From positions 791,426 through 855,425 of the forward strand of contig NZ_RBIL01000001.1 in NCBI RefSeq assembly GCF_003633755.1: a stretch of DNA of 64,000 nucleotides, given 5' to 3'. Shown in pieces: positions 670 through 20,886 of the stretch. The notes under the pieces were generated by a model, which was not told where the DNA came from, did not search any database, and worked only from the letters and a program-made list of their open reading frames with translations. The number at the start of each line of letters is the position of its first letter. Within the stretch, counting starts at the first letter, position 1. The translations under genes and the position numbers were made by a program. The stretch is from Solirubrobacter pauli. Its GTDB lineage: Bacteria > Actinomycetota > Thermoleophilia > Solirubrobacterales > Solirubrobacteraceae.

Positions 670-1002
670 TCAGCGCACATGTTGCTTCCACTTGACGACG
701 CGGTCGATGTCGAAGCACAGGAGGCGGTCGTTGCCCTGTCCGGAGCACTCGAACCCTTGCACGATGCGGACCGACGACCCGCCGCCGGCGACTTTGTAGA
801 ACCCGCGGACCACCCGGCGCGCCTTCGCGCACGAGACGTCGCGCGTTCGCAGCGCCGATACGTCGACGGTGTAGTTCGGGCGCTTGACGGTGAACCCCGC
901 GCATTTGGTGACGGGGCCCGCTCCCGCAGGGGCGGTCATCGCCGAACCAAGCGCGACCGCCACCGCAGCCAGCACGCCCAACCGGATTATGTACGTGAAC
1001 AT
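670..1002 (-). CDS. Small secreted cysteine-containing protein
   Basis: The 110-residue product has a clear signal peptide (residues 1-28, cleavage after PAGA). The mature part is about 80 residues with four Cys, probably two disulfides, and a basic C-terminus. The start is supported by AGAGGAAG about 5 nt upstream of ATG 1002. It follows the Arg-rich leader ORF 1018-1263 by 15 nt on the same strand. I do not recognise the family; its length and Cys pattern recall the small secreted protein at 9981-10385 in the same island. Function unknown. Confidence 0.72.
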   Translation of the reverse strand: MFTYIIRLGVLAAVAVALGSAMTAPAGAGPVTKCAGFTVKRPNYTVDVSALRTRDVSCAKARRVVRGFYKVAGGGSSVRIVQGFECSGQGNDRLLCFDIDRVVKWKQHVR

Positions 1003-1268: not shown

Positions 1269-1314
1269 CGACGCTACGTGTCATCGTCGACCGGGGAAAC
1301 GTCGCAAAGTGATG
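1269..1314 (-). promoter_or_regulatory. Promoter module copy A
   Basis: On the minus strand, CATCACTTTGCGACGTTTC (1296-1314) is followed by exactly 17 bp and CGTAGCGTCG (1269-1278). The same layout occurs at 6971-7016, 10739-10784 and 14489-14534. The hexamer TAGCGT fits a TAnnnT -10 element, with TTTCCC as the matching -35 at 17 bp. The GTG of the leader ORF begins 5 nt downstream, so a leaderless transcript is likely. Whether the extended upstream conservation is sigma or activator contact is inference. Confidence 0.65.
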
Positions 1315-1326
1315 AAGTGACGGCAA

Positions 1327-1342
1327 TTGGCGTTTCCGCCAA
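1327..1342. promoter_or_regulatory. Palindromic operator copy A
   Basis: A perfect inverted repeat, TTGGCG-GAAA-CGCCAA (minus strand), with further pairing outwards (GGCAA on both flanks). It lies 12 bp upstream of promoter module A, the same distance as in copies B and C. Unlike B and C, no divergent mini-LuxR gene is found on the other side, so this copy would be controlled in trans. Confidence 0.6.
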
Positions 1343-3852: not shown

Positions 3853-4699
3853 GCACTTCCTCTCACGCGTCGACGGCGCCAGGCCGGTTGACCGGTGGCG
3901 AAGTCTCTCGCGGATCGTCAGTTGCGGCAAGGGCACAAAGTGAGGAGCTACCACGGTCGAGCTCGACCGATACCAGTGCGCAAGCGGTGCGTGCCAGCCG
4001 CAGCCGCGGGGATGCGCCGCAGATTGCCGGCCTTAGGCGCTTGTCACCTGCAGACTCGGCTGTCGAGTGCGTGCACGCGTCGCGTCGGACGAGCCGCGGG
4101 CCTTGTCACTGCACGGGTCACACGCCCGGGCAGGCCTTACGTGCACTTGATCGCTCGTGACCCACGGCGAAGGGTGACGTCAATTCGAAATGGCGTCTGT
4201 GCGAGGCCTTCGGTCGCACAGACTGCTCGACATGCGCGGACTACCGGCGCGACCGCTGCTTCGAACGCCGGACCGTACCGAGCCTGCGGCGCGCACGTAT
4301 CGGCGTGGGTTTCGTCCGATGGAGCGTCAGGCCTACCAGCCGCGGCGCGCGGCAGCGCGGGCCGGCTTGGACCGACGGACGCGACGAGCCTGCACCCGGC
4401 GTCGCGGGAGGCGCCAACGGTGCGGTATCCGTTGCGACCGGCGGGACGGTCCTGACGATCGGGCTCGCATCCGGCGTCGCCGTCGGTGATGGAGCCGGAG
4501 TCGCGGTCGATGTCAGCGCCGGATGATCACCGAAGTTGGTTTGACGTGACCATTTGAGCCCGGAAGAGCGAGAGTCGCGCCCGCCAGCGGCGTCGTGGCC
4601 CTGACGCGGCACGGCTCGACGAAACGGGAGCCGGTTCCACTGAGCGTTCGCTCCGGATACGGTGGCGCGCGGTCGCTTGATCGAAACGACGAGGAACAC
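3853..4699. other. Long intergenic region with a degenerate promoter-module copy
   Basis: No convincing gene. On the minus strand 3927-3945 reads CCTCACTTTGTGCCCTTGC, resembling the upstream box of modules A-D, but the expected TAGCGT at the right distance is GAGACT, so it is at best degenerate. At about 4241-4540 the minus strand encodes a Pro/Thr/Ala-rich run like the linker of the neighbouring phosphoesterase, possibly the remnant of another secreted protein. Confidence 0.35.
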
Positions 4700-5578
4700 G
4701 TGGACAGGACGCACTCAGAGCAGCGACGACTGGCCTTGGACGGGCTCACCGCAGCGCTGGCGCTGTCGGGTTGGGTCGCGCTTGGCAGCTTCGTGCTGGC
4801 CGTGGCAAATAGTCAGAGCGATGACGGGCTCGGGGAACACCCGGTACGCCGGATCACGCTCGGCGTGCTGTTGCTGGGCTTCTTCGTTTTCGCTCTGTGG
4901 AAACGCCGTGCGGTGTGGGCAGCCCTTACCCGCCGTCCTGAACTGGTGGTCGTGCTCGCGGCGGCGCAGATTGCCGCGGTGGCGGCCGACGAAGTGGTGG
5001 GCGGCGCCTACGTCGCGGTGAGCCTGACGTCGCTGGGTCTCGCCGTTCTGGCGGCAGACGACCGGCTGGTCTGGGCGTGCGTCGCCGTACTTGAGGTCGG
5101 ATTCGTGGTGGGGCTGCTGTCGCGATACTCGCTGGCCGAGCTCGCCGACGACGGAGAACTCGGCGGGGTCGTGTCGTCGATCGTGAAGTTCCCCGTCGTC
5201 GCGTTCATGTTGCTGGCCATCCGCAGGCTGTTCAACCGCTTCTCCGACGGCGCCGGAGAGATGCTCATGCTCCTGCGAGCCGGAGCCCCGGCACTGACCC
5301 CGGCGCTCGACCAAGCCGTCGCGTCCCGTGGGGCGCCGCTGCTCCTCGGGCCGGGCGAGCCCCAACCGATCGTGATCGACCTCACGCCCGCCGAGGTCCG
5401 GGCGGTCGAAGGGCTCGCGGCGGGGCGCGCCCCCAAGCAGATCGCCTTCGACCAGGGCGTGACCCTCGCAACGATCCGGACGCACCTCAAGCACGCCAAG
5501 CGCAAGACCGGGGCGCGCACGCTACGTGAGCTGGCCGCGTTCGTCGCTCGTCCTGACTGGCCGCGGGTGACGCGATGA
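4700..5578 (+). CDS. Membrane-anchored LuxR-type HTH regulator
   Basis: The product is 292 residues from GTG 4700, chosen because GACGAGGAA precedes it; the longer frame from 4595 has no ribosome site. Residues about 15-190 form several hydrophobic helices, followed by a cytoplasmic linker and a C-terminal LuxR/GerE-like helix-turn-helix (DLTPAEVRAVEGLAAGR to TIRTHLKHAKRKTG, about 230-280). There is no receiver domain. It overlaps the next gene by 4 nt (ATGA), so the two are translationally coupled and probably act as a pair. A membrane sensor directly carrying its DNA-binding domain is inferred; the signal is unknown. Confidence 0.82.
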   Translation: MDRTHSEQRRLALDGLTAALALSGWVALGSFVLAVANSQSDDGLGEHPVRRITLGVLLLGFFVFALWKRRAVWAALTRRPELVVVLAAAQIAAVAADEVVGGAYVAVSLTSLGLAVLAADDRLVWACVAVLEVGFVVGLLSRYSLAELADDGELGGVVSSIVKFPVVAFMLLAIRRLFNRFSDGAGEMLMLLRAGAPALTPALDQAVASRGAPLLLGPGEPQPIVIDLTPAEVRAVEGLAAGRAPKQIAFDQGVTLATIRTHLKHAKRKTGARTLRELAAFVARPDWPRVTR

Positions 5579-6591
5579 CCACGCTCGTCCCGACGACGCC
5601 GCGCCTGGCAGCAAGCGGTGCCGAGCTCACCGCGCTGGCCGAGCGTTTCTGTCTGCGGGCGTTCGCGGCCGGAGCGTTCTTCTGCGGCGCGGCAGCCGTC
5701 AGCGCGCTCGTGATGCTGCCCCTGCGCGATTCCGCAGATCCCGTGACTTGGTCGACGCCGACCGTGCTCTTGACGGCACTGGTCGCCATCGCGGCGTTCG
5801 CGGTCGCGTGGCTGCCCGCGCCGGTGTACCGCGCGCTGTGCCGGCGGCCCGACCTCGAACTCGTCCCGGTGATGCTGGCGGCGGCCATGCTTGCCTATCC
5901 GCTGCGCAGCGAACTGTGGTGGCCGTCGTGCGCGTTGGTGATGCTGGTGGCCCAGGTCGCGCCGCTGCGCCGCACCTGGAGCTACTGCGCGGTCGTGTTG
6001 ATCACCAACCTCGCCGCCCATGCGCTCTCCGGGGACCTGGCCGAGTCCCCAGCCGTGTCAATTTTGGGACTCTGGATCGGATTCGGCTTCTGGACGACGC
6101 TGACGGGCTTGGTCGTCGAACGGATCGCGCGGCACCTTTTGCGCGTGGACGTCGGGCAGGTCGGGCCGCCCGCGAGCACCGCCGCGCTGGCGCTCGAGCT
6201 GGCCACCTGGGCCGCGCCGAACCGGGCCGCGCAAGACGCCGACCCTGAGCCCGCCGGGTCGTCGCACGGCGTGCCTGCGGAAGCGGTCACGGTGGTCGAG
6301 GCGACACCATTCGAAGCGGTCGAACCACGCGTTCCAGCTGTGGTGCCCGCACCGGCGCCCGCGTCGAACGCGCTCGCGGACCCAACCCTCAAGTTGACCC
6401 GTAGGCAGCTGGAGGTCGTCGCCCTGCTTGCCGACGGACATCGCTACGACGAGATCGCCAAGTGTCTGTCGATCTCCCGCAGGCAGGTCCAGCGGCACGT
6501 GACGTCAGCTGTCGAGCGGCTGGGCGTGCACAACGCGAACGAGCTCGTGGCAATCGCCGTCGCCTCCGGTTTCGTACCGCCTATGAGCTAG
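5575..6591 (+). CDS. Second membrane-anchored LuxR-type HTH regulator
   Basis: The 338-residue product has the same architecture as its coupled upstream neighbour: N-terminal hydrophobic helices (about residues 25-190), an Ala/Pro-rich linker (about 200-265) and a C-terminal LuxR HTH (LKLTRRQLEVVALLADG to ISRRQVQRHVTSAVERLG, about 270-325). No phosphoacceptor domain is seen. The two proteins are diverged paralogues with the same helix layout. The context, next to mini-LuxR genes and repeated promoter modules, makes control of the secreted-protein operons plausible but unproven. The ATG at 5575 overlaps the previous stop. Confidence 0.82.
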   Translation: MTTLVPTTPRLAASGAELTALAERFCLRAFAAGAFFCGAAAVSALVMLPLRDSADPVTWSTPTVLLTALVAIAAFAVAWLPAPVYRALCRRPDLELVPVMLAAAMLAYPLRSELWWPSCALVMLVAQVAPLRRTWSYCAVVLITNLAAHALSGDLAESPAVSILGLWIGFGFWTTLTGLVVERIARHLLRVDVGQVGPPASTAALALELATWAAPNRAAQDADPEPAGSSHGVPAEAVTVVEATPFEAVEPRVPAVVPAPAPASNALADPTLKLTRRQLEVVALLADGHRYDEIAKCLSISRRQVQRHVTSAVERLGVHNANELVAIAVASGFVPPMS

Positions 6592-6655: not shown

Positions 6656-6883
6656 TTAAGGGTCCAGCGGGATCAAGCCAAATCGCAGCGCCTGGACGGC
6701 GAGATGCGTGCGCGAACGCGCTGCGAGCTTGCCACGTGCGGCGGCGACATGCGCTCGCACCGTGCGCACGGTGATGCGCAGCTCAGCGGCAATCTCGGCG
6801 TCGGTACAGCCTTCGGCAACAAGCACGACGACCTCGAGCTCGCGCGCAGTGAGCACTTGAGGGGCGGCGTCGGCGTTGCCCAT
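6656..6883 (-). CDS. HTH-only mini-LuxR regulator (module B)
   Basis: At 75 residues this is essentially only a LuxR/GerE DNA-binding domain: LTARELEVVVLVAEGCTDAEI at 11-31 and the recognition helix region TVRTVRAHVAAARGKL at 38-53. It ends in GLIPLDP, nearly the same tail as the mini-LuxR at 10421 (RLIPLDID), so the two are recent paralogues. It is divergent from the M23 operon across operator B, the layout of an autoregulated local regulator. There is no ribosome site; ATG 6883 lies 9 nt after a TAGCGT hexamer, suggesting a nearly leaderless mRNA. Confidence 0.85.
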   Translation of the reverse strand: MGNADAAPQVLTARELEVVVLVAEGCTDAEIAAELRITVRTVRAHVAAARGKLAARSRTHLAVQALRFGLIPLDP

Positions 6884-6892
6884 GGCGACGGC

Positions 6893-6930
6893 ACGCTACC
6901 CCGCCGCGCAGCCTTCGCCCACCGGACGAA
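6893..6930 (-). promoter_or_regulatory. Promoter of mini-LuxR gene B
   Basis: The minus strand carries TTCGTCCGGTGGGCGA (6915-6930), a 16-bp gap and TAGCGT (6893-6898), 9 nt before the ATG. The mini-LuxR gene at 10421 has the corresponding TTCGTCTGGTGAGCGA, a 15-bp gap and TAGCGT. The -10 hexamer is the same as in promoter modules A-D. Confidence 0.5.
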
Positions 6931-6942
6931 AGTGGGGAGCCA

Positions 6943-6958
6943 TTGGCGGAAACGTCAA
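6943..6958. promoter_or_regulatory. Palindromic operator copy B
   Basis: TTGGCG-GAAA-CGTCAA is an inverted repeat with one mismatch, between the divergent mini-LuxR and M23 operon promoters and 12 bp upstream of promoter module B. Placement between two divergent promoters fits a shared binding site, probably for the mini-LuxR protein. Confidence 0.6.
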
Positions 6959-6970
6959 TTGCCACCGCCT

Positions 6971-7016
6971 CATCACTTTGGGACCTTTCGCTAACGACCG
7001 GCCGCTCGTAGCGTCG
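6971..7016 (+). promoter_or_regulatory. Promoter module copy B
   Basis: CATCACTTTGGGACCTTTC (6971-6989), exactly 17 bp, then CGTAGCGTCG (7007-7016). The ATG of the 10-codon leader begins 6 nt later at 7022. It should drive the contiguous plus-strand genes from 7022 to 10385. Confidence 0.7.
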
Positions 7017-7021
7017 CCGGC

Positions 7022-7054
7022 ATGGGACCTGCCAGGAGAGGAACGGGATCGTGA
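7022..7054 (+). CDS. Ten-codon leader peptide (module B)
   Basis: This tiny ORF reads MGPARRGTGS and stops in TGA overlapping the GTG start of the M23 gene (GTGA). The ATG is 6 nt after the -10-like element, the expected transcription start, so it would be read from a leaderless mRNA. The AGGAGAGG site for the main gene lies inside it. Module D has the same arrangement; in modules A and C the equivalent ten codons run in frame into the following ORF. Confidence 0.5.
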   Translation: MGPARRGTGS

Positions 7055-8490
7055 GTCACGGACGACGGACGGCGCGTCTGTACGCCGACGGGCGCAGCGC
7101 AGCGGGCAAGTCGGTGGAGGCGACGGCTCGGAGCGGCTCGCAGGATCACCTGGTGCGCGCGGCGGCGCTCGCGCTGCTGCTCGCCGTCGGCGCCTGGCTG
7201 CTTGCCGGCGAGCCAGCCGACGCGCGCAACAAACTCAAGGTGAAGGCGACGCCCGCGACGGTTGCTCCGGGGTCGAGCGTCAGGGTCGTGGTCACCGGCA
7301 CTTCGCGCACCCGCTGTGCGCTCACGGTCCGCGCTGACCGTGCCGGTTCGCGTCCGTCGGTTCGCCGCCGCGTCGCACGCCAGAGCCGGCTGGCAATCCC
7401 GGCCTCCAGCGCTGCCGGCGTCCGGATCGTGACGGTTCGCTGCGGCACGCAGACGGCCCGCACGCGCTTCACCGTCGCCGCCGCAACTGCCGCTCCTCCC
7501 GCACCGTCGCCCGCCGCCGACGAGCACGAGACCTACGGCGAGCTGCCGATCGACATCAACGAGATCGCCGGCTACACCGTCGGCGACGGCCTCGGCGGTG
7601 GCGAATACACGACCCGCATTCCGTTCACCAACGGCACCCGAATCCGCGTCAGCCAGGGCGCCAACGGCGGCTACTCGCACGGGAACGCCTACACACGCAA
7701 CGCCGTCGACCTCCCGGCCGCCCTAGGCACCCCCGTGCGCGCCGGGTTCTCCGGCGTCGTCGCCGCGGCCGTAGGCGGGTGCCCGACCACCACGCAGTGG
7801 GGCTGCAACCGCGGGTTCGGCAACTTCGTGCTGCTCAAGAACGTCGACGGCACGTGCGCCCTGCACGCTCACCTGACAGCGATCAACGTGAGCCCCGGAC
7901 AGCCCGCGGCCCGCTACACCCAACTGGGTACGGTCGGCACCTCCGGCAGCTCCACCGGCGCCCACCTGCACTACGACCGAATCGACTGCGCGAGCCGGGC
8001 CTCGCTCCCGTGGTCGTTCGAGGAGGCCGGCAACCCGCGCGAAGGCGCCTGGGTGACCTCCTCCAACGAGCCCGCGCCCGCCGTCGCTCCCCCGACACCC
8101 GACCCCGCCCCCGCCCCCGCTCCGCCGTCGGCGCCCGCGCGACGGCCGATCACGGTCGACAACCGCGTCACCAACGGCATGAGCATGCGCGAGGACTCCA
8201 GCCCGGCCCGCCTGACGACCAAGGCCTGGATCCGCTGCGGGACCCGCGGCTGCAACATCGGCGGCACCGAGCGCGGCAGCGGCGGCACCTACGACGCGGC
8301 GGTCTGCCAGACCTCCGGTGAGCGCACCACCAACGGCAACGACTCCTCCGCGGCCGACGACGGCAACCCCGAACGCTTCGAGTCGACGCGCTACTACGGC
8401 GTGCGGCTGCATGACGGCACCTTCGGCTTCATCAGCGAAGTCTGGATCCGTGCGAGCGACCGTGGCGGACTGGGGCTGCCGGGATGCTGA
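7051..8490 (+). CDS. Secreted M23 metallopeptidase with SH3-like tail
   Basis: The 479-residue product starts at GTG 7051 behind AGGAGAGG. It has a long basic N-region and hydrophobic segment (about 35-53), a beta domain (58-142), then an M23/LytM peptidase with zinc and catalytic residues visible: H210 (YSHGNAY), D220 (NAVDLP), H272 and H274 (LHAHL), H305 and H307 (GAHLHY). A Pro/Ala linker (about 350-370) leads to an SH3-like region similar to that of the 8594 protein. M23 enzymes usually cleave peptidoglycan cross-bridges. It heads the module B operon. The roughly 34-residue extension before the hydrophobic segment is unusual. Confidence 0.85.
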   Translation: MSHGRRTARLYADGRSAAGKSVEATARSGSQDHLVRAAALALLLAVGAWLLAGEPADARNKLKVKATPATVAPGSSVRVVVTGTSRTRCALTVRADRAGSRPSVRRRVARQSRLAIPASSAAGVRIVTVRCGTQTARTRFTVAAATAAPPAPSPAADEHETYGELPIDINEIAGYTVGDGLGGGEYTTRIPFTNGTRIRVSQGANGGYSHGNAYTRNAVDLPAALGTPVRAGFSGVVAAAVGGCPTTTQWGCNRGFGNFVLLKNVDGTCALHAHLTAINVSPGQPAARYTQLGTVGTSGSSTGAHLHYDRIDCASRASLPWSFEEAGNPREGAWVTSSNEPAPAVAPPTPDPAPAPAPPSAPARRPITVDNRVTNGMSMREDSSPARLTTKAWIRCGTRGCNIGGTERGSGGTYDAAVCQTSGERTTNGNDSSAADDGNPERFESTRYYGVRLHDGTFGFISEVWIRASDRGGLGLPGC

Positions 8491-8597
8491 CCCGGGCGTA
8501 CACGTGCTTCTCCGGTGCCGGCGCCGGGACGTGTCGCAACAAGCCGACCGCGCAGGACGCACCCCGGATCGCCGGCTACGAGGCCGACGCCAAATGA
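8484..8597 (+). CDS. Small coupling ORF between M23 and SH3-hydrolase genes
   Basis: A 37-codon ORF whose ATG (8484) overlaps the M23 gene stop and whose TGA overlaps the next gene's ATG at 8594 (ATGA). It encodes a peptide with two Cys and no signal sequence. The next gene has no strong ribosome site, so passage of ribosomes through this ORF could couple the two. Alternatively it is a C-terminal piece of the SH3-like domain displaced by a frameshift. Not recognised as a family. Confidence 0.35.
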   Translation: MLTRAYTCFSGAGAGTCRNKPTAQDAPRIAGYEADAK

Positions 8598-9685
8598 GCC
8601 GCGAGGAGCGCGCTCGCGGCGCTGATGTCGGGCGTGTCAGCGCCCAGGGACCTAACTTGGTCCGCGTCGTCGGCGCGCTCCTCGCAACCGCGCTGGTGAC
8701 ACTCGCTGCGGCCGCGCCGGCGGCCGCGGGAGCAGTGCACACCGTGGTCGACTCCGACAACGATCCGTATGCGGGCATCTACCTGCGCGACGGCAAGTCG
8801 ATGGGCGAGTTCCGACGGATCCTCGAGCGCTACATGCCCTACGGCACGAGGGTCGAACTGCTGTGCGCGGACAACGGCGAAGCGGTCGGACCGTACGCGA
8901 ACCGCCGCTGGCATTCCGTCCGGGTCGCCGACGGCGCGATCGCCGGACAAGTGGGCTGGATCGCCGACCGCTACCTGGACACGCCCAATCGGGCCAACGA
9001 AGCAACGCCCGGCGAGCCGGAGTGCCCCAGCGGAGGCACTCCGGCCCCCGGCCCCGGCACGCCGCCACCCGCCGGCGTTCCGGCGCGTGACGGCGCATCG
9101 GTGTATTTCTCGCCGCCGTCGCCCGACGATCTGTCCTCGCCGGCGACCTTGCACCGTCCGTACGAGCAGTGGCGAGGCGCGAACTGCTCCGCGTCCAAGG
9201 CGGCCAGCGTCCCGTCCTGGGTGGCCCCCGCCAACCAGAACGTCACGGTCCTCAGCGGCTGGAGCATCGGACGACTGGGACCGATCTATCTCCTGCAGTC
9301 GACGTCCGCGGGCAACCGGTCACGCTGGCAGGAGATCGACTACATCCTGCTGTTTGACCCCGGCAACCTGGAACAGCTCACCGGCAACCGCTGCGACAAG
9401 ACCTACCCAGCCGCCCGGCTCTACACGGAGTGGCTGAAGGCCAACGCGAGCGCCCGCCTGGTGATCCTTGCGGGCGAAGCGACGTCGCCCCGCCGTCACG
9501 AAGGCATCCAGCAGGCCTACTTCAACTACCTCCGCGAACACGGTGGGCCTCGCGACCGCGTGATCGTGTGCAACTACGGCTCGCTCAAACACCGGAGCGT
9601 GTACACGAAGTACCGGAGCTGGATCACCAAGCCCGCGATCACCAAGTCCAGCTGCCCCGACGGAGCGCTCGGATGGAATCCCTGA
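8594..9685 (+). CDS. Secreted SH3-like plus GxSxG hydrolase-like protein
   Basis: The 363-residue product starts at ATG 8594, overlapping the preceding small ORF. A signal segment (about 22-46, ending APAAAGA) is followed by an SH3-like region (about 48-130) resembling the tail of the M23 protein at 7051, a Pro/Gly linker (about 145-165) and a C-terminal alpha/beta-type domain. That domain contains GWSIG at 222-226, a nucleophile-elbow pattern, with D255 (LLFDPGN) and H302 or H333 as possible triad partners. I do not recognise a named family; a secreted esterase, lipase or amidase is possible. Expected to be co-expressed with the M23 enzyme. Confidence 0.72.
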   Translation: MSREERARGADVGRVSAQGPNLVRVVGALLATALVTLAAAAPAAAGAVHTVVDSDNDPYAGIYLRDGKSMGEFRRILERYMPYGTRVELLCADNGEAVGPYANRRWHSVRVADGAIAGQVGWIADRYLDTPNRANEATPGEPECPSGGTPAPGPGTPPPAGVPARDGASVYFSPPSPDDLSSPATLHRPYEQWRGANCSASKAASVPSWVAPANQNVTVLSGWSIGRLGPIYLLQSTSAGNRSRWQEIDYILLFDPGNLEQLTGNRCDKTYPAARLYTEWLKANASARLVILAGEATSPRRHEGIQQAYFNYLREHGGPRDRVIVCNYGSLKHRSVYTKYRSWITKPAITKSSCPDGALGWNP

Positions 9686-9711
9686 GCCAATCGATCACGG
9701 AAGGCCCCCGC

Positions 9712-9936
9712 ATGCCCGACGAACCACGGACGGTGTTCCCGCGAGCCCTGGCCAGCTTCGCCGGGCTAACGCTCGCGGCGCTCGCCGATGCTTGGGCGGC
9801 GCGGCTGCGCGCTCGAGAAGATCGCCCCGCAACGCTCGACAACGTCGCACGGGGACGCGTGATCCGCTCGCGGCCGGCTCCGGGGCCACGCGAGCTGCGG
9901 ACTCGCATCACGATCGTCGTGAGCAGCGGCCGATGA
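9712..9936 (+). CDS. Small basic protein of unknown function
   Basis: The 74-residue product starts at ATG 9712 behind GGAAGG. A moderately hydrophobic stretch (ALASFAGLTLAALADAWAA, residues 12-30) could be a membrane anchor or amphipathic helix; the rest is Arg-rich. It fills the gap between the 8594 and 9981 genes on the same strand, and its stop overlaps a possible ATG at 9933. Not recognised. Confidence 0.45.
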   Translation: MPDEPRTVFPRALASFAGLTLAALADAWAARLRAREDRPATLDNVARGRVIRSRPAPGPRELRTRITIVVSSGR

Positions 9937-9980
9937 CGCCCAGGCCGACCCCCGCAAATACCGAACGAGATGGAGATTGG

Positions 9981-10385
9981 ATGCCGCACGTTGGCGCAGC
10001 CTCTTCGCGCGCGCGCAAGATCACGGTGTTGCTGATGTCCGCATGGGTATTCGCCGGCGCCGCCGCCGACGCCCAAGCAGCATTCGAGCTCGGGGACATC
10101 CGCCCCTACATGGAGAGCGCGATCAAACGAACGTTGGGCTCGTCGGTCGCGAAGCAGTTCACCACCGACAACTGCGCGGCCGCAGGTGCGCGAGGTTGGA
10201 CGTGTCTGTGGAATCACCCGGACCGCGGCGCCAGCGCCGAGATCGGCGGCAGCGCGACCGTGAAGGCGATCAAGGTGCGCGGCCGGTGCAAGGTCAAAGT
10301 CAGTGGCGAATTCCGCGACCTCGACTCCGGGCGGTCTGGGAAGCTCCGCTATACGACGAGCGGCCGCAGCCGGTTCTGCCGATGA
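9981..10385 (+). CDS. Small secreted protein, module B operon
   Basis: The product is 134 residues from ATG 9981, chosen for GGAG about 8 nt upstream and a standard signal peptide (about 1-33, cleavage after DAQA). An alternative ATG at 9933 overlaps the previous stop and would add 16 residues. The mature part has Cys residues at both ends and a central Trp-Thr-Cys-Leu-Trp pattern; no catalytic motif. It resembles the 670-1002 product in size, Cys content and basic C-terminal strands. Last gene of the operon, convergent with the second mini-LuxR. Confidence 0.65.
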   Translation: MPHVGAASSRARKITVLLMSAWVFAGAAADAQAAFELGDIRPYMESAIKRTLGSSVAKQFTTDNCAAAGARGWTCLWNHPDRGASAEIGGSATVKAIKVRGRCKVKVSGEFRDLDSGRSGKLRYTTSGRSRFCR

Positions 10386-10420
10386 AACCGCTCGGCTCTG
10401 TCGAGCCCACCGCGGATCGG

Positions 10421-10651
10421 TCAGTCGATATCGAGTGGGATCAGACGCTGCCGCAAGGCGAGTACCGCCAAGTGGGTGCGCGACCGCGCCTGCAGCTTGC
10501 TGCGCGCGGCGGCAACGTGCGCGCGTGCGGTGCGCTCGGTGATCCCGATCACCCCGGCGATCTCGGCATCGGTCAGGCCTTCGGCGACCAGGCGCACCAC
10601 TTCGAATTCGCGGGCACTGAGCACCCGGATGGTGGCGTCCACGATCGGCAT
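10421..10651 (-). CDS. HTH-only mini-LuxR regulator (module C)
   Basis: The product is 76 residues from ATG 10651. The frame is open further upstream, but the region before this ATG is the conserved promoter, and the paralogue at 6656 starts at the equivalent place. The HTH reads LSAREFEVVRLVAEGLTDAEI at 11-31 followed by the recognition helix ERTARAHVAAARSKL. It is divergent from the module C operon across operator C. No sensor or receiver domain is present, so activity may depend on protein level or a partner such as the membrane LuxR proteins. Confidence 0.83.
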   Translation of the reverse strand: MPIVDATIRVLSAREFEVVRLVAEGLTDAEIAGVIGITERTARAHVAAARSKLQARSRTHLAVLALRQRLIPLDID

Positions 10652-10661
10652 CACGGCGGGC

Positions 10662-10698
10662 ACGCTACCCGTTCGGGAGGGATCGCTCACCAGACGAA
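10662..10698 (-). promoter_or_regulatory. Promoter of mini-LuxR gene C
   Basis: The minus strand carries TTCGTCTGGTGAGCGA (10683-10698), a 15-bp gap and TAGCGT (10662-10667), about 10 nt before the ATG. It matches the promoter of the mini-LuxR gene at 6656 in both boxes. Confidence 0.5.
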
Positions 10699-10710
10699 GG
10701 TATGGGTCCA

Positions 10711-10726
10711 TTGGCGGATCGGCCAA
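10711..10726. promoter_or_regulatory. Palindromic operator copy C
   Basis: TTGGCG-GATC-GGCCAA is an inverted repeat with one mismatch, between divergent promoters and 12 bp upstream of promoter module C, the same geometry as copies A and B. Confidence 0.6.
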
Positions 10727-10738
10727 TTGCAAGGGTCT

Positions 10739-10784
10739 CATCACTTTGCGACGTTTCACTCGGCGTCGGCAGGACGTAGCGTCG
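10739..10784 (+). promoter_or_regulatory. Promoter module copy C
   Basis: CATCACTTTGCGACGTTTC (10739-10757), exactly 17 bp, then CGTAGCGTCG (10775-10784), with the leader ATG 7 nt further on at 10791. It should drive the genes up to 14450, where a terminator follows. Confidence 0.7.
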
Positions 10785-11599: not shown

Positions 11600-13417
11600 A
11601 TGAAACGGCTCAATGGTCCGGCGCGCAAGCTCGGCCGGGCGGGCGCGCTGGCGACGGCGTTGCTTGCGCTGCTCGCGTGCCCCGCCCACGCTGACCCTGG
11701 CGCAAGCCCGGAGCTCGTCCCGTTCACCGGCACCCGCACGCTGACCGCCACCTGGGGCCCGCCGTCAGGCAACTATCACTCGTATCCCGCGATCGACATC
11801 GGCCTGCCGACCGGCACGCCGGTCTACGCCACTGGCGCGGGCACGATCGTGGCCAGCCACAGTGGCTGCCCGACCGGGAGCCTGACGTCTACCTGCGGGA
11901 TCGAGAATCTCGGCAACATGATCCGGATCGCGCACGCGGACGGCCGGCACAGCCGCTACGGCCACTTGAGCTCGCTTGTCGTGAGCTCCGGCGCGGTCGC
12001 CGCCGGGCAGCTCATCGGCTACTCCGGCAGCTCCGGCAAGTCAGAGGGCCCGCATCTGCACTACCAGGAAACGAGCGGGGTCTCCTACAACGCCGCCGTC
12101 GATCCAGGCACGTGGGTCGCGTGCCACGGGGCGACGCGGATCGAGTACGCGAACGTGCAACAGCGCGTGAAGCAGGCGGTCCGCAACGACGGGTACGGCT
12201 GCATGAACGAGCCGCTGAGCACCGGGCCGATCGGCAACGGCGGGGGCACGATCCGCGGCCTCAGCAGCGGCCGTTGCGTCGATGTGGCCAACGCCGGCAC
12301 CGCGAACGGCGCCAGGCTCATGCTGTTCGACTGCCACGCCGGGGTGAACCAGCAGTGGACATTCTGGGGCGGGCAACTCAGCGTGTACGGCAACGCCAGC
12401 AAGTGCCTGGACGCCGCGGCCGGCGAACTCGGCGTCAACGGCACGCCGGTTCAGATCTACGACTGCCACAGCGGCAGCAACCAGCGATGGGTCGCCCACC
12501 CCGACAGCACGCTGCGGTCGGCCGCGTCCGGACGCTGTCTGGACGCCTCCGGCTTCGGGACGGAGAACGGCACGCCGCTGCAGCTCTGGGACTGCAACGG
12601 GACGAGCAACCAGCAATGGATCGGGATCCCGTCGGGCAACGGCGGTGAGACCATTCGCGGACTGGGCAGCGATCGGTGTCTCGACGTGCCGGGAGCGAGC
12701 ATCTCCCCCGGCGCACGGCCACAGCTCTGGGACTGTCACGGCGCCGCGGAGCAGCAGTGGTTGTTGGCCGGGACCGAGATCCGCGTGTTCGGGGACAAGT
12801 GCCTCGACGTCGCCGGCGCCGGCACCGACAACGGGACTGGCGTCCAACTCTGGTACTGCAACGGCAACGCTCAGCAGCAATGGCGCTGGGACAGCGACGG
12901 GACGATCCGCTCGCTGCACAGCGGACGCTGCCTCGACGCCATTGGCGTCGGCACTGACAACGGCACCCTGCTGCAGATCTTCGACTGTCACGGCGGCCCC
13001 AATCAGGTCTGGCAACGGCCCGCAAGGCCGCCAGCTCCGGCAGCACCGGCAGAACCGGCAGCACCGGCAGAAGACAACAGAGCCCAATCGACAACTCCCA
13101 GCGCTGCAGTGGCGCCGGGTGGGACAGTGCCCCCGTCGACGCTCCCCTCCACCGTCTTGCGTAATCGTGTGCGCCCGTCGCTCACGGGCACCGCGCGCGT
13201 CGGTCGCGTGCTGCGGTGCGGGGGAGGAGCCTGGAGCGAGCAGCCGCATGCCGTGACCCGGGGTTGGCAGCGAAACGGCAAGGCGATCTCAGGCGCCCGC
13301 GCGAGGAGCTATCGGTTGCGACGAACGGACCGCGATACGCGCATCCGCTGCGTCGTCACCGCGATGAGCGGGGCTCAGCGGGTGACCGCGACCTCCCGAA
13401 CGGTGCGAGTTCGGTGA
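11600..13417 (+). CDS. Secreted M23 metallopeptidase with two ricin-B lectin domains
   Basis: The product is 605 residues from ATG 11600 behind GCAGGGGA. Signal peptide 1-31 (LALLACPAHA). The M23 domain (about 45-175) has H60 and D66 (NYHSYPAIDIGLP), H122 (RYGHL) and H152/H154 (GPHLHY), all ligand and catalytic positions intact. Two ricin-type beta-trefoil lectin domains follow (about 215-345 and 350-475) with repeated G-R-C-L-D and Q-x-W motifs. A Pro/Ala linker leads to a C-terminal Ig-like domain (about 525-605). Cell-wall binding and peptide cleavage are expected; targets are unknown. Lectin-M23 fusions are typical of secreted actinobacterial hydrolases. Confidence 0.88.
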   Translation: MKRLNGPARKLGRAGALATALLALLACPAHADPGASPELVPFTGTRTLTATWGPPSGNYHSYPAIDIGLPTGTPVYATGAGTIVASHSGCPTGSLTSTCGIENLGNMIRIAHADGRHSRYGHLSSLVVSSGAVAAGQLIGYSGSSGKSEGPHLHYQETSGVSYNAAVDPGTWVACHGATRIEYANVQQRVKQAVRNDGYGCMNEPLSTGPIGNGGGTIRGLSSGRCVDVANAGTANGARLMLFDCHAGVNQQWTFWGGQLSVYGNASKCLDAAAGELGVNGTPVQIYDCHSGSNQRWVAHPDSTLRSAASGRCLDASGFGTENGTPLQLWDCNGTSNQQWIGIPSGNGGETIRGLGSDRCLDVPGASISPGARPQLWDCHGAAEQQWLLAGTEIRVFGDKCLDVAGAGTDNGTGVQLWYCNGNAQQQWRWDSDGTIRSLHSGRCLDAIGVGTDNGTLLQIFDCHGGPNQVWQRPARPPAPAAPAEPAAPAEDNRAQSTTPSAAVAPGGTVPPSTLPSTVLRNRVRPSLTGTARVGRVLRCGGGAWSEQPHAVTRGWQRNGKAISGARARSYRLRRTDRDTRIRCVVTAMSGAQRVTATSRTVRVR

Positions 13418-14450: not shown

Positions 14451-14460
14451 GCAGACGAAA

Positions 14461-14487
14461 GGCCCCGCGGAACGTGACCGCGGGGCC
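14461..14487 (+). terminator. Rho-independent-type hairpin after module C
   Basis: A 10-bp perfect stem GGCCCCGCGG / CCGCGGGGCC with a 7-nt loop, 10 nt after the lipoprotein stop. It abuts promoter module D and takes the place of the palindromic operator seen in modules A-C. Confidence 0.6.
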
Positions 14488-14488
14488 T

Positions 14489-14534
14489 CATCACTTCGCG
14501 ACGTTTCACGACAGACCAACCGAACGTAGCGTCG
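14489..14534 (+). promoter_or_regulatory. Promoter module copy D
   Basis: CATCACTTCGCGACGTTTC (14489-14507), exactly 17 bp, then CGTAGCGTCG (14525-14534); leader ATG 6 nt later. It differs from copies A-C in lacking the TTGGCG palindrome, so this unit may share the promoter type but not the repressor or activator site. Confidence 0.68.
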
Positions 14535-14540
14535 GCGGCC

Positions 14541-14573
14541 ATGCGGACAAAGACGAGGGGAGCACGATCATGA
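14541..14573 (+). CDS. Ten-codon leader peptide (module D)
   Basis: Reads MRTKTRGARS and ends in TGA overlapping the ATG of the next gene (ATGA), as in module B. GAGGGGAG inside the leader serves as ribosome site for the main gene. The leader ATG is at the expected transcription start. Confidence 0.5.
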   Translation: MRTKTRGARS

Positions 14574-16507
14574 GTCAAGAACGACGGAGCCGCTGGACGC
14601 GCACCGCCGCGCTGTTGAGCGTTGGCCTGTGGATGCTCGGCGGCGCGCCGGCGCTCGCCAAGACCACGGTCGGCGCCACGTACGGCCAGGTGGGCGCGCG
14701 TTCGCTGAGCGCGTACACGCTCGTCGACGGCGCGCCGCGCAAGGCCTACGCCGTGCTGGAGACCAAGCGCTTCTCGCGGAGGCGCACCGGCGTCGCCCGC
14801 TCGACAACTCGACGACTCGCACGCAGCGGACGGACGACACTTACGATCGGCGCGCCGCGCGGCACCAAACGCATCACCGCTCGCGTGCGCGTGATCACCC
14901 GGACCAAGCGCAACAACGGCCGGGTCCGAACGCGCACGGTCGGTACGGGTCGATGGACGACGATCGAACTCACACGCACCGGGCGCACGGCGAAGGTCGG
15001 CGCGGTCAAGCCCAAGGACGTTGTGGCCGTCACGGCACCCACGGCAGCAGCACCAGGATCAATCCAGCTCACGGGCGCCTCCTCGCGCGTGAGGCCGGGC
15101 GAGGTGATCGCGCTCGGCATCACGCCCGCCGCGCCCGATGGGCTCTTGGCCCAGGTCACGCAAGTCACCCCCAGTGGCAACGGAACCGTGGCGTCGCTCG
15201 TCCCGGCGCGGCTGTCGGACGTGGTGCCGGCTGGCGCGTTCGACGTGGATATCCCGGTTGAGCAGGTCGCATCCATCAGCGGCAAGACGACGTCGGAAAA
15301 GACGCCGCGAGCCCTGCAGTGCACGTCCTCGCGCTCCGCCACGGCGGCGGCGCTCGCCGAGCTCTCGGCCGGCGTGAAGCTGTCGGCGAAGTGGACGGGC
15401 GGCAGCATGTTCCCGCCCAGGCTGCCGCAGCTGCAGGCCGGTGTGACCGGGACCGTCGAGGCGCGCCTAGAGGGCGAACTCTCGCTCAACGGCGAAGCCA
15501 AGTGCACCCTCGCGCCGCAGACGCTGTTCCCCGCACCGGTCCGGCTGGCCACGTTCACCGTCCAGGTCGGGCCGGTGCCGATCCCGGTCGTCATCGACGG
15601 CCAGGTCACGCTCACCGGCTCCGCGGAAGCCACCGGCTCACTGTCGACCAGCGTCAAGGCCCGGGCGAGCGCCGCTGCCAGCGTCACCTACGACCGCGGC
15701 AAGCTCACCCCCGGCAAGACGTTCGAGCGCTCGTTCACGCATCAGCCGCCCGCGGTCAACGGCACCGGCAGCGCGCAGGTCACGCTGTCTCCGGCGATCG
15801 GTGTGCGCCTCGCTGGCGCGGCCGGCCCCGAGATCGATCTGTCGGGAGGCCTGAAGCTCACCGGCAACCTCGCGGCGCCCGCGGGCCAGCCCTGGTGGAC
15901 GCTGACCGCGCCCGTCAGCCTCGGCGCGAAGTTCAAGTTCGCGCTCTGGGGCATCGAGGTCGACTCGCCGCGCTACGAGCTCTGGGGCGAGGAGTTCCCG
16001 GTCGCCTCCGCCGACCCCGCCACGGGCGCCCCCGGCTCCTCGATCGCCGGCGGGGGACCCGCGCCCGAACCGCTGCCTCCGGGTGTCCGCACGCGCTTGA
16101 CGTGGGACAGCGACACCGACGTGGACCTGCACACCTGGAACCAGACGGGCGACCACGCCTACTTTCGCGACCTTGAAGCGATCCCCGGCGGCTACCTGGA
16201 CCGGGACGTGATTCCCGGCTACGGCCCGGAGACGTTCTTCGAAACCGATCCCGCCAAGGGCAACCAGTTCACGTTCGGCGTGTGCCAGTACTCCGGCAAG
16301 AACGCCAACGTGATCGTCGACGTGCGCGACCCGGACGGTCAGACGCGCCGGTACACCGTGACGCTGCGCGGCCGCAAAGCGGCGGCGCTGTTGACCACAA
16401 GCCCCGTCGGCATCGCGCCGTACATCGACCCCGACGGCGACTGGTGCAACGGGGACGGAGGCGATCCGACACAGCTCGGGCAGGTCACCACCGGGTCGTT
16501 CGGATGA
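14570..16507 (+). CDS. Large secreted beta-rich protein with C-terminal DUF2135/YfaP-like domain
   Basis: The 645-residue product starts at ATG 14570 with GAGGGGAG upstream. Signal peptide about 1-30 (SVGLWMLGGAPALA). A basic, Thr/Arg-rich region (30-150) precedes a long beta-rich section with repeated Val/Thr strands (about 170-480). The C-terminal part (about 515-640) reads LTWDSDTDVDLHTW, then GGYLDRDVIPGYGPE, the signature of YfaP/DUF2135-type domains of extracellular proteins. No catalytic residues are apparent; a structural or adhesion role is inferred. First gene of module D, followed by two M23-type genes. Confidence 0.72.
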   Translation: MSQERRSRWTRTAALLSVGLWMLGGAPALAKTTVGATYGQVGARSLSAYTLVDGAPRKAYAVLETKRFSRRRTGVARSTTRRLARSGRTTLTIGAPRGTKRITARVRVITRTKRNNGRVRTRTVGTGRWTTIELTRTGRTAKVGAVKPKDVVAVTAPTAAAPGSIQLTGASSRVRPGEVIALGITPAAPDGLLAQVTQVTPSGNGTVASLVPARLSDVVPAGAFDVDIPVEQVASISGKTTSEKTPRALQCTSSRSATAAALAELSAGVKLSAKWTGGSMFPPRLPQLQAGVTGTVEARLEGELSLNGEAKCTLAPQTLFPAPVRLATFTVQVGPVPIPVVIDGQVTLTGSAEATGSLSTSVKARASAAASVTYDRGKLTPGKTFERSFTHQPPAVNGTGSAQVTLSPAIGVRLAGAAGPEIDLSGGLKLTGNLAAPAGQPWWTLTAPVSLGAKFKFALWGIEVDSPRYELWGEEFPVASADPATGAPGSSIAGGGPAPEPLPPGVRTRLTWDSDTDVDLHTWNQTGDHAYFRDLEAIPGGYLDRDVIPGYGPETFFETDPAKGNQFTFGVCQYSGKNANVIVDVRDPDGQTRRYTVTLRGRKAAALLTTSPVGIAPYIDPDGDWCNGDGGDPTQLGQVTTGSFG

Positions 16508-18486: not shown

Positions 18487-20886
18487 ATGAGCAACCGGCG
18501 GCGGTCGCTGCAAATCGCGCTGGCCATGACCGTTGCCTTCGCGGTCGGATTCTGCGGGCAGGCGCCCGCCGCGTGGGGCGCGACGAAGTTGCCGTACCCC
18601 ACGAACGGATGGGTGAACCCCGTTACGCCCGCGGCGTTCGAGGACTGGGGATTCGCCAGCTGTAGCCCTCCCTACAACGGCAACCAGGCGCACCTGGGCG
18701 CCGACTCACAAGGAACCACCGCCGGGCAAACCGTGATTGCCATGGCCAGCGGAACCGTCGTCCGCGTCGTGGTGTCGAACTGGGGCCCGGGCGGGGCAAT
18801 AGGCATCGAGCACGTCACCGCCGACGGGACACGCTTTGTCGCTCTGTACGGGCATATCGACGTCACCATGCAGCCAGGCCAAGCCGTCGCTGCAGGACAA
18901 GCGATCGGGACGCTTCACGACCAGCGCGCCAACAGCCATCTGCATCTCGGTCTACGTCCACTCGGCCCGGGTGAGACGGGCAGCGCGATCACCCTCTGGG
19001 GATCGTCGACGTGCATCAACGGAACGGCACGATCCTACGGATTCGTCAATCCGATTCCATGGCTCGCGACTCATCCTCCAGCAACGCCTCCCGACCGAGA
19101 GCCCGATGCCGACGGGGACGGGACGCCGGATGTGCGAGATGCATGTCCGTCCGAGGTCGGGCCAAGGCTCACCAGCGGGTGTCCAGACGACGACGGCGAC
19201 GGCGTCACGGACCGCGCGGACATCTGCTCCACGATCGCGGGATCGTCGACGCTGTCGGGCTGTCCCGAAGAGCTCATCGGCGGCCAGCCACGGTCTCGAG
19301 TGGACTTCGACGGCGACGGCAGAGCGGACTTTTGCCGGCTCACCGGCGGTCAGAACAACCAGAGCAGCTACGCCCAATGCACCCTCAGCACCGGCAGCGG
19401 CTTCGGCGCCACCATCACCAGCGCCCTGACGGACTGGGGATACGACTCCGGTCGAGCCTGGGTGGACTTCAACGGGGACGGCAAAGCGGACTTTTGCCGG
19501 CTCACCGGCGGTCAGAACAACCAGAGCAGCTACGCCCAATGCACCCTCAGCACCGGCAACGGCTTCGGCGCCACCATCACCAGCGCCCTGACCGACTGGG
19601 GATACGACTCCGGTCGAGCCTGGGTGGACTTCAACGGGGACGGCAAAGCGGACTTTTGCCGGCTCACCGGCGGTCAGAACAACCAGAGCAGCTACGCCCA
19701 ATGCACCCTCAGCACCGGCAACGCCTTCGGCGCCACCATCACCAGCGCCCTCATCGACTGGGGCCTCGACGCCGGACGCGCCTGGACCGACTTTGACGGC
19801 GACGGCAAAGCGGACTTCTGCCGCCTCACCGGGGGCCAGAACAACCAGAGCAGCTACGCCCAATGCACCCTCAGCACCGGGACCTCGTTCGGTCCCACAA
19901 CCACCAGCGCAGTCCTCGACTGGGGGCGCAACCTCGGCCGCGCCTGGGCAGACCTCAACGGCGACGGCAAAGCAGACTTCTGCCGGCTCACCGGCGCCCA
20001 GAACAACCAGAGCAGCTACGCCCAATGCACCCTCAGCACCGGCAACGCCTTCGGCGCCACCATCACCAGCGCCCTCATCGACTGGGGCCTCGACGCCGGA
20101 CGCGCCTGGACCGACTTTGACGGCGACGGCAAAGCGGACTTCTGCCGCCTCACCGGCGCCCAGAACAACCAGAGCAGCTACGCCCAATGCACCCTCAGCA
20201 CCGGCACCGCCTTCGGTCCCACAACCACCAGCGCAGTCCTCGACTGGGGGCGCAACCTCGGCCGCGCCTGGGCAGACCTCAACGGCGACGGCAAAGCAGA
20301 CTTCTGCCGACTCACCGGCGCCCAGAACAACCAGAACAGCTACGCCCAATGCACCCTCAGCACCGGCAGCGCCTTCGGCGCCACCATCACCAGCGCCCTC
20401 ATCGACTGGGGCCTAGACGCCGGACGCGCCTGGCCGGGAACCGGCAACGCGGTCGCGACCACGTGCCCGCAGCCGTCGACCGGCCGACCGCCCACCTGTG
20501 ACCCGCAGTCAGTTTCATGCTCGCCCAGTCAGATCGGCGCGCCGCCAAACTGTCAGCCGCCGGCCGAAGCTTCCTGCGGTGCAGGGATCTCCCCGACTCC
20601 GCCCGACTGCGTGGCTGGCGCTGCCGCACCGCCCGTACCCAGTGGAATGGCAGCGACCAGCAGATCGCGAAATCAGCACGTGACCGTAAGGCTCGCGCAG
20701 GGTTGCGCGAAGCGCTACCTCCGCGTCTCAGGAACGGGAGTCTCGATTCTCGCCATCAAACGCATGCGCAACGCGCGATGCCGGATCACGCTCCGCATAC
20801 AGGCCTCCGCGCGCGGCCTGCGAGCCATCTCGGTGAAGCTGCCGCACCAGACCCGCCGGACCGTCAAGAAGGTTCGCGTCGCTTGA
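18487..20886 (+). CDS. Secreted M23 peptidase with thrombospondin-3 and seven VCBS-like repeats
   Basis: The 799-residue product has ATG 18487 behind ACGGAGGA. Signal peptide 1-31. The M23 domain (about 40-195) has H69 and D73 (AHLGAD), H123 (LYGHID) and H151/H153 (NSHLHLG). Calcium-type thrombospondin-3 motifs (DADGDGTPD, DDDGDGVTD) cover about 206-255. Seven 54-residue repeats beginning DFDGDGKADFCRL, each with a DxDGDG-type calcium loop, span about 272-649 and probably form a beta-propeller. A Cys/Pro linker and a basic C-terminal domain follow. Calcium-stabilised extracellular hydrolase inferred. The DNA repeat array is listed separately. Confidence 0.87.
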   Translation: MSNRRRSLQIALAMTVAFAVGFCGQAPAAWGATKLPYPTNGWVNPVTPAAFEDWGFASCSPPYNGNQAHLGADSQGTTAGQTVIAMASGTVVRVVVSNWGPGGAIGIEHVTADGTRFVALYGHIDVTMQPGQAVAAGQAIGTLHDQRANSHLHLGLRPLGPGETGSAITLWGSSTCINGTARSYGFVNPIPWLATHPPATPPDREPDADGDGTPDVRDACPSEVGPRLTSGCPDDDGDGVTDRADICSTIAGSSTLSGCPEELIGGQPRSRVDFDGDGRADFCRLTGGQNNQSSYAQCTLSTGSGFGATITSALTDWGYDSGRAWVDFNGDGKADFCRLTGGQNNQSSYAQCTLSTGNGFGATITSALTDWGYDSGRAWVDFNGDGKADFCRLTGGQNNQSSYAQCTLSTGNAFGATITSALIDWGLDAGRAWTDFDGDGKADFCRLTGGQNNQSSYAQCTLSTGTSFGPTTTSAVLDWGRNLGRAWADLNGDGKADFCRLTGAQNNQSSYAQCTLSTGNAFGATITSALIDWGLDAGRAWTDFDGDGKADFCRLTGAQNNQSSYAQCTLSTGTAFGPTTTSAVLDWGRNLGRAWADLNGDGKADFCRLTGAQNNQNSYAQCTLSTGSAFGATITSALIDWGLDAGRAWPGTGNAVATTCPQPSTGRPPTCDPQSVSCSPSQIGAPPNCQPPAEASCGAGISPTPPDCVAGAAAPPVPSGMAATSRSRNQHVTVRLAQGCAKRYLRVSGTGVSILAIKRMRNARCRITLRIQASARGLRAISVKLPHQTRRTVKKVRVA
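19300..20433 (+). repeat. Seven tandem 162-bp coding repeats
   Basis: Units begin at 19300, 19462, 19624, 19786, 19948, 20110 and 20272 with no length variation. Units 1-3 are near-identical; units 4-7 alternate in two types (starting with Asp-Phe-Asp and Asp-Leu-Asn), so a 324-bp pair was itself duplicated. High DNA identity implies recent expansion or gene conversion; copy number may vary between strains. Confidence 0.92.

Follow-up and report, generated by a model that had tools for sequence, protein, structure and literature searches.

A putative LuxR-type switch of one small and two membrane proteins, linked to a conserved promoter box in Solirubrobacter pauli

We analysed a stretch of 64,000 nucleotides from Solirubrobacter pauli (contig NZ_RBIL01000001.1, positions 791,426 to 855,425; hereafter the window) that encodes two very small LuxR-type proteins, each with a single helix-turn-helix (HTH) domain (mini-LuxR B and C), and two membrane proteins with a C-terminal LuxR HTH (TM1 and TM2). 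The genes are found with a short promoter box, TCATCACTTT, and this combination recurs in other genera of the same order. Judging from sequence, we lean slightly towards a three-protein LuxR switch of mini-LuxR, TM1, and TM2 that would activate transcription at the box, with a nearby palindrome as an extra operator. The four regulator genes are:

Mini-LuxR B, 6656–6883, minus strand: 75 amino acids, GerE/LuxR HTH only (Pfam PF00196, 53.4 bits), with codon-position bias and orthologues in genomes G049, G193, and G110.
Mini-LuxR C, 10421–10651, minus strand: 76 amino acids, paralogue of B (PF00196, 54 bits).
TM1, 4700–5578, plus strand: membrane protein with several hydrophobic helices and a C-terminal LuxR HTH (PF00196 at residues 228–281).
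TM2, 5575–6591, plus strand: second membrane protein with a C-terminal LuxR HTH (PF00196, 41.6 bits), its start overlapping the end of TM1.

An earlier note on this DNA had described two HTH-only LuxR genes divergent from the operons that we call B and C, and both are borne out by their scores against PF00196 (GerE; cut-off 23.5 bits) and by their codons. The two proteins are 71% identical, and the genes differ 15, 15, and 41 times at codon positions 1, 2, and 3; mini-LuxR B and C are therefore genuine genes under purifying selection. The HTH spans residues 9–65, with about eight residues ahead of it and no other domain, and these are the sole short frames of this kind among 111 GerE matches genome-wide. 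No receiver domain was found in mini-LuxR by the NarL/FixJ (BldM-type) criterion, and TM1 and TM2 had no Pfam receiver match. An AlphaFold2 (AF2) model of mini-LuxR is a helical HTH (pLDDT 79), whose best structural match is the C-terminal domain of EsrB (Z 9.8, root-mean-square deviation 1.5 over 64 residues); the VIA-align rows serve here only to confirm an HTH. A profile match to the GerE structure 1fse has an E value of 3.2e-15. The HTH is complete and conserved among orthologues. A search of genome contigs with mini-LuxR returned only HTH matches of 42–53% identity, mostly from other classes or phyla, and was uninformative.

TM1 and TM2, which the earlier note did not mention, lie upstream of mini-LuxR B as two overlapping genes. 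They are about 290–340 amino acids long, with three to five hydrophobic segments each by a simple hydropathy count. The LuxR HTH of TM1 scores 25.2 bits in the genome scan and 21.8 bits when scanned alone. A single-sequence structure model of TM1 was discarded, its quality being too low to use or to count helices.

The box is part of a promoter unit found at several places in the window:

Promoter A, 1271–1315, minus strand: arrangement as in promoter B.
Promoter B, 6970–7014, plus strand: box TCATCACTTT, −35-like TTTCGC, 17 nt, −10 element TAGCGT.
Promoter C, 10738–10782, plus strand: arrangement as in promoter B.
Promoter D, 14488–14532, plus strand: box TCATCACTTC, −10 element TAGCGT, without the TTGGCG palindrome described below.
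Promoter E, weaker, 3902–3946, minus strand: TCCTCACTTT, preceding a gene for a 691-amino-acid secreted protein.
Mini-LuxR B promoter, 6894–6938, minus strand: degenerate box TCCCCACTTT, 30 nt, TAGCGT.

Genome-wide, the box TCATCACTTTGnGACnTTTC occurs only at A, B, and C, at 14488–14507 (plus strand), and weakly at 3927–3946 (minus strand), all within 14 kb; the fourth strong and the weaker fifth copy are also new relative to the earlier note. Downstream of every strong copy lie, in order, TTTCxC, 17 nt, and TAGCGT. In degenerate form, TC[AG]TCAC[AT][AT]T placed 29 nt ahead of a TANNNT −10 element, the box precedes operons A–C and matches at nine of ten positions before D. If TAGCGT is the −10 element, the box sits at about −51 to −42. 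Across A, B, and C the invariant columns make up 19/22 of the box plus −35 region and 7/7 of the −10, versus 4/17 of the 17-nt spacer.

We then surveyed the trio in 232 genomes of the order, plus an even draw of 399 genomes from the class. A TM1 search found it in five of the 232: G000, which is the genome of the window, G049, G193, G110, and G011. This distribution is patchy, covering five genera and two families. The class draw added no further genome, G120 matching through the HTH only, and both TM1 and the box are absent from the other six genomes of the genus. TM2 follows TM1 in all five genomes and mini-LuxR adjoins the pair in four of them, a co-occurrence with TM1 that is significant (P = 1.6e-4) before adjacency is counted. 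G049, which belongs to another family of the order, carries two tandem mini-LuxR genes divergent from TM1 and TM2 orthologues, so mini-LuxR is duplicated both there and in G000. Among the short or HTH-only LuxR genes of genus g19 (G200, G202, G206, G201, G024), the TM pair is absent from the hidden Markov model matches at their loci, and the upstream stretches inspected for G200, G202, and G206 showed no box.

The box is conserved with these genes. With the window's 10-mer TCATCACTTT as the only query, intergenic DNA at the four TM1 loci outside the window gave matches of 10/10 in G049 (shuffle P = 4e-4), 8/10 in G193 (P = 0.03), 9/10 in G110 (P = 0.0012), and 9/10 in G011 (P = 0.0028), with a combined P of 1e-7. 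All four are oriented away from TM1 and face mini-LuxR, except that the one in G011 faces a large LuxR gene. The distance from box to TANNNT is 29 nt in G049 and G193, matching the window; thus the degenerate box with its 29-nt spacing stands ahead of mini-LuxR in two other genera, and a third has a 9/10 match with 28-nt spacing. Adjacent trio genes with a box ahead of mini-LuxR were found in G049, G193, and G110. In the five whole TM1 genomes, TCRTCACWWT-N29-TANNNT has five matches, all at these loci. The other 227 genomes hold five stray matches, none beside a LuxR gene and none with mini-LuxR, TM1, or TM2 nearby, and we took these to be chance. The shuffle test is the independent one, because the degenerate pattern was generalised from these very loci. 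Since the box travels with LuxR-type HTHs and precedes mini-LuxR genes, these HTHs would be its obvious binders.

A strict position relative to TAGCGT, in a promoter shared by several operons and the mini-LuxR genes, could also mean that the box and −10 are read by an alternative sigma factor, with the LuxR genes merely among its targets. We consider this very unlikely. CACTTT lies 29 nt from the −10, far from the 16–19 nt of sigma −35/−10 pairs, and a separate TTTCxC is present at 17 nt. The open reading frame (ORF) lists show no sigma factor gene beside the trio, and the box tracks TM1, TM2, and mini-LuxR across families.

G011 bears on which of the three proteins acts at the box. There, a gene for a 913-amino-acid LuxR-type regulator (L122:3341–6082) takes the place of mini-LuxR. 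The protein has a C-terminal HTH similar to mini-LuxR, and its gene, preceded by the box at a distance of about 190 bp, is oriented divergently from TM1. Because G011 keeps the box, TM1, and TM2 without a mini-LuxR, mini-LuxR need not bind the box, and TM1 or TM2 could act without it. This, together with the presence of TM1/TM2 in 5/5 genomes against an adjacent mini-LuxR in four, would also suit a scheme in which activation is due to TM1 and/or TM2 themselves, and the small mini-LuxR, much like an HTH-only feedback microprotein, antagonises or modulates them by pairing with their HTHs; a box ahead of mini-LuxR is what feedback would predict. We regard this scheme as unlikely, however, as a pure antagonist would not need the complete and conserved HTH that mini-LuxR has, and the gene is duplicated in two genomes.

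The earlier note had centred on a second element, the palindrome TTGGCG-N4-CGCCAA, as the operator with which the mini-LuxR genes are paired. The palindrome lies within a 20-bp element at three places:

Operon A element, 1323–1342, minus strand: palindrome 1327–1342, perfect.
Operon B element, 6943–6962, plus strand: palindrome 6943–6958, one mismatch.
Operon C element, 10711–10730, plus strand: palindrome 10711–10726, one mismatch.

All three copies were found where that note had placed them, and copy A has no mini-LuxR gene beside it, as it had said; no mini-LuxR remnant was detected there or in the D and E regions. The fixed spacing to the box also held, being identical at A, B, and C, although the gap is exactly 11 bp to TCATCACTTT and reaches the 12 bp claimed only when counted to CATCAC. 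It is the note's 'promoter box' that accompanies the regulators across families. The pairing of the palindrome with mini-LuxR was not supported. TTGGCG-N4-CGCCAA is absent at promoter D, at the related mini-LuxR loci of G049, G193, and G110, and at other trio loci, so the co-occurrence of palindrome and mini-LuxR in other genomes, which had been set beforehand as a test, failed.

The palindrome itself is conserved at A, B, and C. In a gapless alignment, 15/20 columns of the 20-bp element are invariant, versus 14/53 in the flanks and spacers (P = 2e-4). In the 7.1 Mb genome, the extended form TTGGCGGAWMSGYCAATTGC is matched without mismatch only at A, B, and C; within three mismatches, and beyond its own reverse at C, it matches one unrelated site (three mismatches). 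The bare palindrome was rejected as a genome-wide operator: its 12 specified bases alone, with one mismatch allowed, match 43 genome sites versus 20 for a reversed control, mostly GC-biased chance. Homology between A and B begins at the palindrome, and that of promoter D with B and C covers only the part from the box onward. Because the invariant columns stand out in A, B, and C while promoter D lacks the palindrome, the sequences indicate an element that is genuinely constrained yet dispensable, the common part being the box. Confined to A, B, and C and centred at about −70, again on the premise that TAGCGT is the −10, the palindrome would most plausibly be an additional upstream operator specific to, and gained in, this lineage, where it would serve a LuxR-type dimer.

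Instead, mini-LuxR homodimers might contact RNA polymerase while bound to the palindrome, with the downstream box as an ordinary promoter element. The 16-bp length is that of NarL/BldM-type dimer sites, the element is constrained in A, B, and C, and at B and C it lies between mini-LuxR and operon. Promoter D and the related mini-LuxR loci have kept the box without the palindrome, however, and copy A has the palindrome without an adjacent mini-LuxR, though a trans-acting regulator could serve it. We think this explanation doubtful.

Other palindromes were seen in the window. A terminator-like hairpin, GGCCCCGCGG-N7-CCGCGGGGCC (14460–14488), ends at box D, and a perfect palindrome, CGGTCGAGCTCGACCG (3954–3969), lies 7 bp ahead of box E; both differ from TTGGCG-N4-CGCCAA and may reflect chance or function. 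Another, TCCGTATCCGCGATACGGA, is at 1558–1576 in the gene-poor stretch behind copy A. Palindrome-like matches to TTGACGGCGACGGCAA (19793 and 20117) derive from FG-GAP-type repeats and are not operators; these near-identical tandem repeats (19280–20470) lie in the gene at 18487–20886.

Returning to the three-protein switch, mini-LuxR would be the soluble member beside membrane-embedded TM1 and TM2. At about −51 to −42, beside a poor −35, TC[AG]TCACTTT would be bound by at least one of the trio acting as a class II activator. The switch would turn on mini-LuxR itself (autoregulation) as well as four or more operons of this species (A–D, probably also E) for secreted cell-wall-acting proteins, including M23/CHAP and lectin proteins. 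The signal would most likely be received by TM1/TM2, which are plausible receivers given that Eggerthella has membrane LuxR proteins that activate genes in their vicinity (PMC9734109). The earlier note was right that mini-LuxR has no input domain and had left its switching open; TM1 and TM2, encoded next door, offer a likely explanation. Mini-LuxR would be controlled via its own transcription and possibly via pairing with the TM1/TM2 HTHs. A mixed pair would fit the box, in which a single TCAC lacks a matching second half. As a tentative and rather improbable extension, the soluble HTH-only LuxR proteins could pair with the TM1/TM2 HTHs on this asymmetric box, the membrane pair signalling and the microprotein giving reach or specificity.

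The candidate target genes are:

Operon A, first gene, 670–1002, minus strand: 110-amino-acid secreted protein.
Operon A, next gene, L141:11275–12921, extending past the left end of the window: secreted protein, similar to CHAP amidases as judged by eye rather than by Pfam.
Operon B, first gene, 7051–8490, plus strand: M23 peptidase with an N-terminal hydrophobic segment.
Operon C gene, 11600–13417, plus strand: secreted M23 peptidase with ricin-B lectin repeats.
Operon D, first gene, 14570–16507, plus strand: secreted protein with no Pfam family.

The proteins of operons A–E carry N-terminal hydrophobic segments and include three M23 peptidases (ricin-type lectin repeats occur in one, FG-GAP repeats in another), the CHAP-like protein, and several without a Pfam family. 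Neighbours of the trio in G110 encode a phospholipase A2, an SdrD-type surface protein, and an RTX protein, and in G049 a collagen-like protein; the prokaryotic phospholipase A2 gene (L121:5338–5814) adjoins the trio and is convergent with TM2. Near the transcription start of operons B (7021–7053) and D (14541–14572) there is a possible 10-codon ORF whose stop overlaps the main-gene GTG or ATG; in operons C and A the matching frame continues into the main or first ORF. At the mini-LuxR genes of G049 (L092:5195, minus strand), G193 (L120:652, minus strand), and copy B (window 6894, minus strand), an ATG lies 7–9 nt past the −10 hexamer, and these mRNAs may be leaderless.

Several observations weigh against the switch. 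The boxes preceding mini-LuxR B and C are themselves degenerate, and the degenerate pattern was settled after the related loci had been seen. TM1 scanned alone falls slightly below the Pfam cut-off for GerE, and in G011 a large LuxR stands with the box and TM1/TM2 where no mini-LuxR was found. Lastly, no secreted-protein operon with the box was found in the other genomes, including among the neighbour genes in G110 and G049.

GerE of Bacillus is a sporulation regulator controlled by the timing of its synthesis. Mini-LuxR resembles it (PDB 1fse, 74 residues) in its length of about 75 residues, single GerE/LuxR HTH, and lack of an input domain; unlike GerE, it is encoded with two membrane LuxR proteins and beside secreted-protein operons. 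The 10–12-transmembrane (TM) LuxR regulators of Coriobacteriia (DadR, HcdR, and CadR) have a membrane N-terminus and a C-terminal LuxR HTH, activate transcription, and are encoded near their targets (PMC9734109). TM1 and TM2 share this layout, but have three to five hydrophobic stretches rather than 10–12 TM segments, are encoded by a pair of overlapping genes, and are partnered by a soluble HTH-only protein. In Streptomyces, the actinobacterial LuxR-HTH protein BldM binds as a homodimer to a 16-bp palindrome of TCAC half-sites, TCACcCgnncGgGTGA, and as a BldM/WhiI heterodimer to a non-palindromic site (PMC4125116). The box also contains TCAC. As response regulators, however, BldM and WhiI carry a receiver domain; mini-LuxR has none, and the partners proposed for it are membrane proteins. 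Single-domain LuxR proteins, with the LuxR HTH as sole recognised domain, are described as a main subfamily in Actinobacteria; they are defined by domain content, and the part of that source consulted describes no linked membrane pair or shared box (PMC3466318).

What would be new here is a variant of known LuxR regulation that pairs a LuxR trio with a conserved box, with a putative membrane input. The promoter unit, copied ahead of several secreted cell-wall enzyme operons in this species, suggests regulon growth by promoter duplication. To our knowledge, signal reception by HTH-only LuxR proteins, which are common in Actinobacteria, is mostly unknown. Here a small family of them is accompanied by a membrane LuxR pair and by a box that two families of the order have in common, which would give such proteins a concrete, testable input route and target site.

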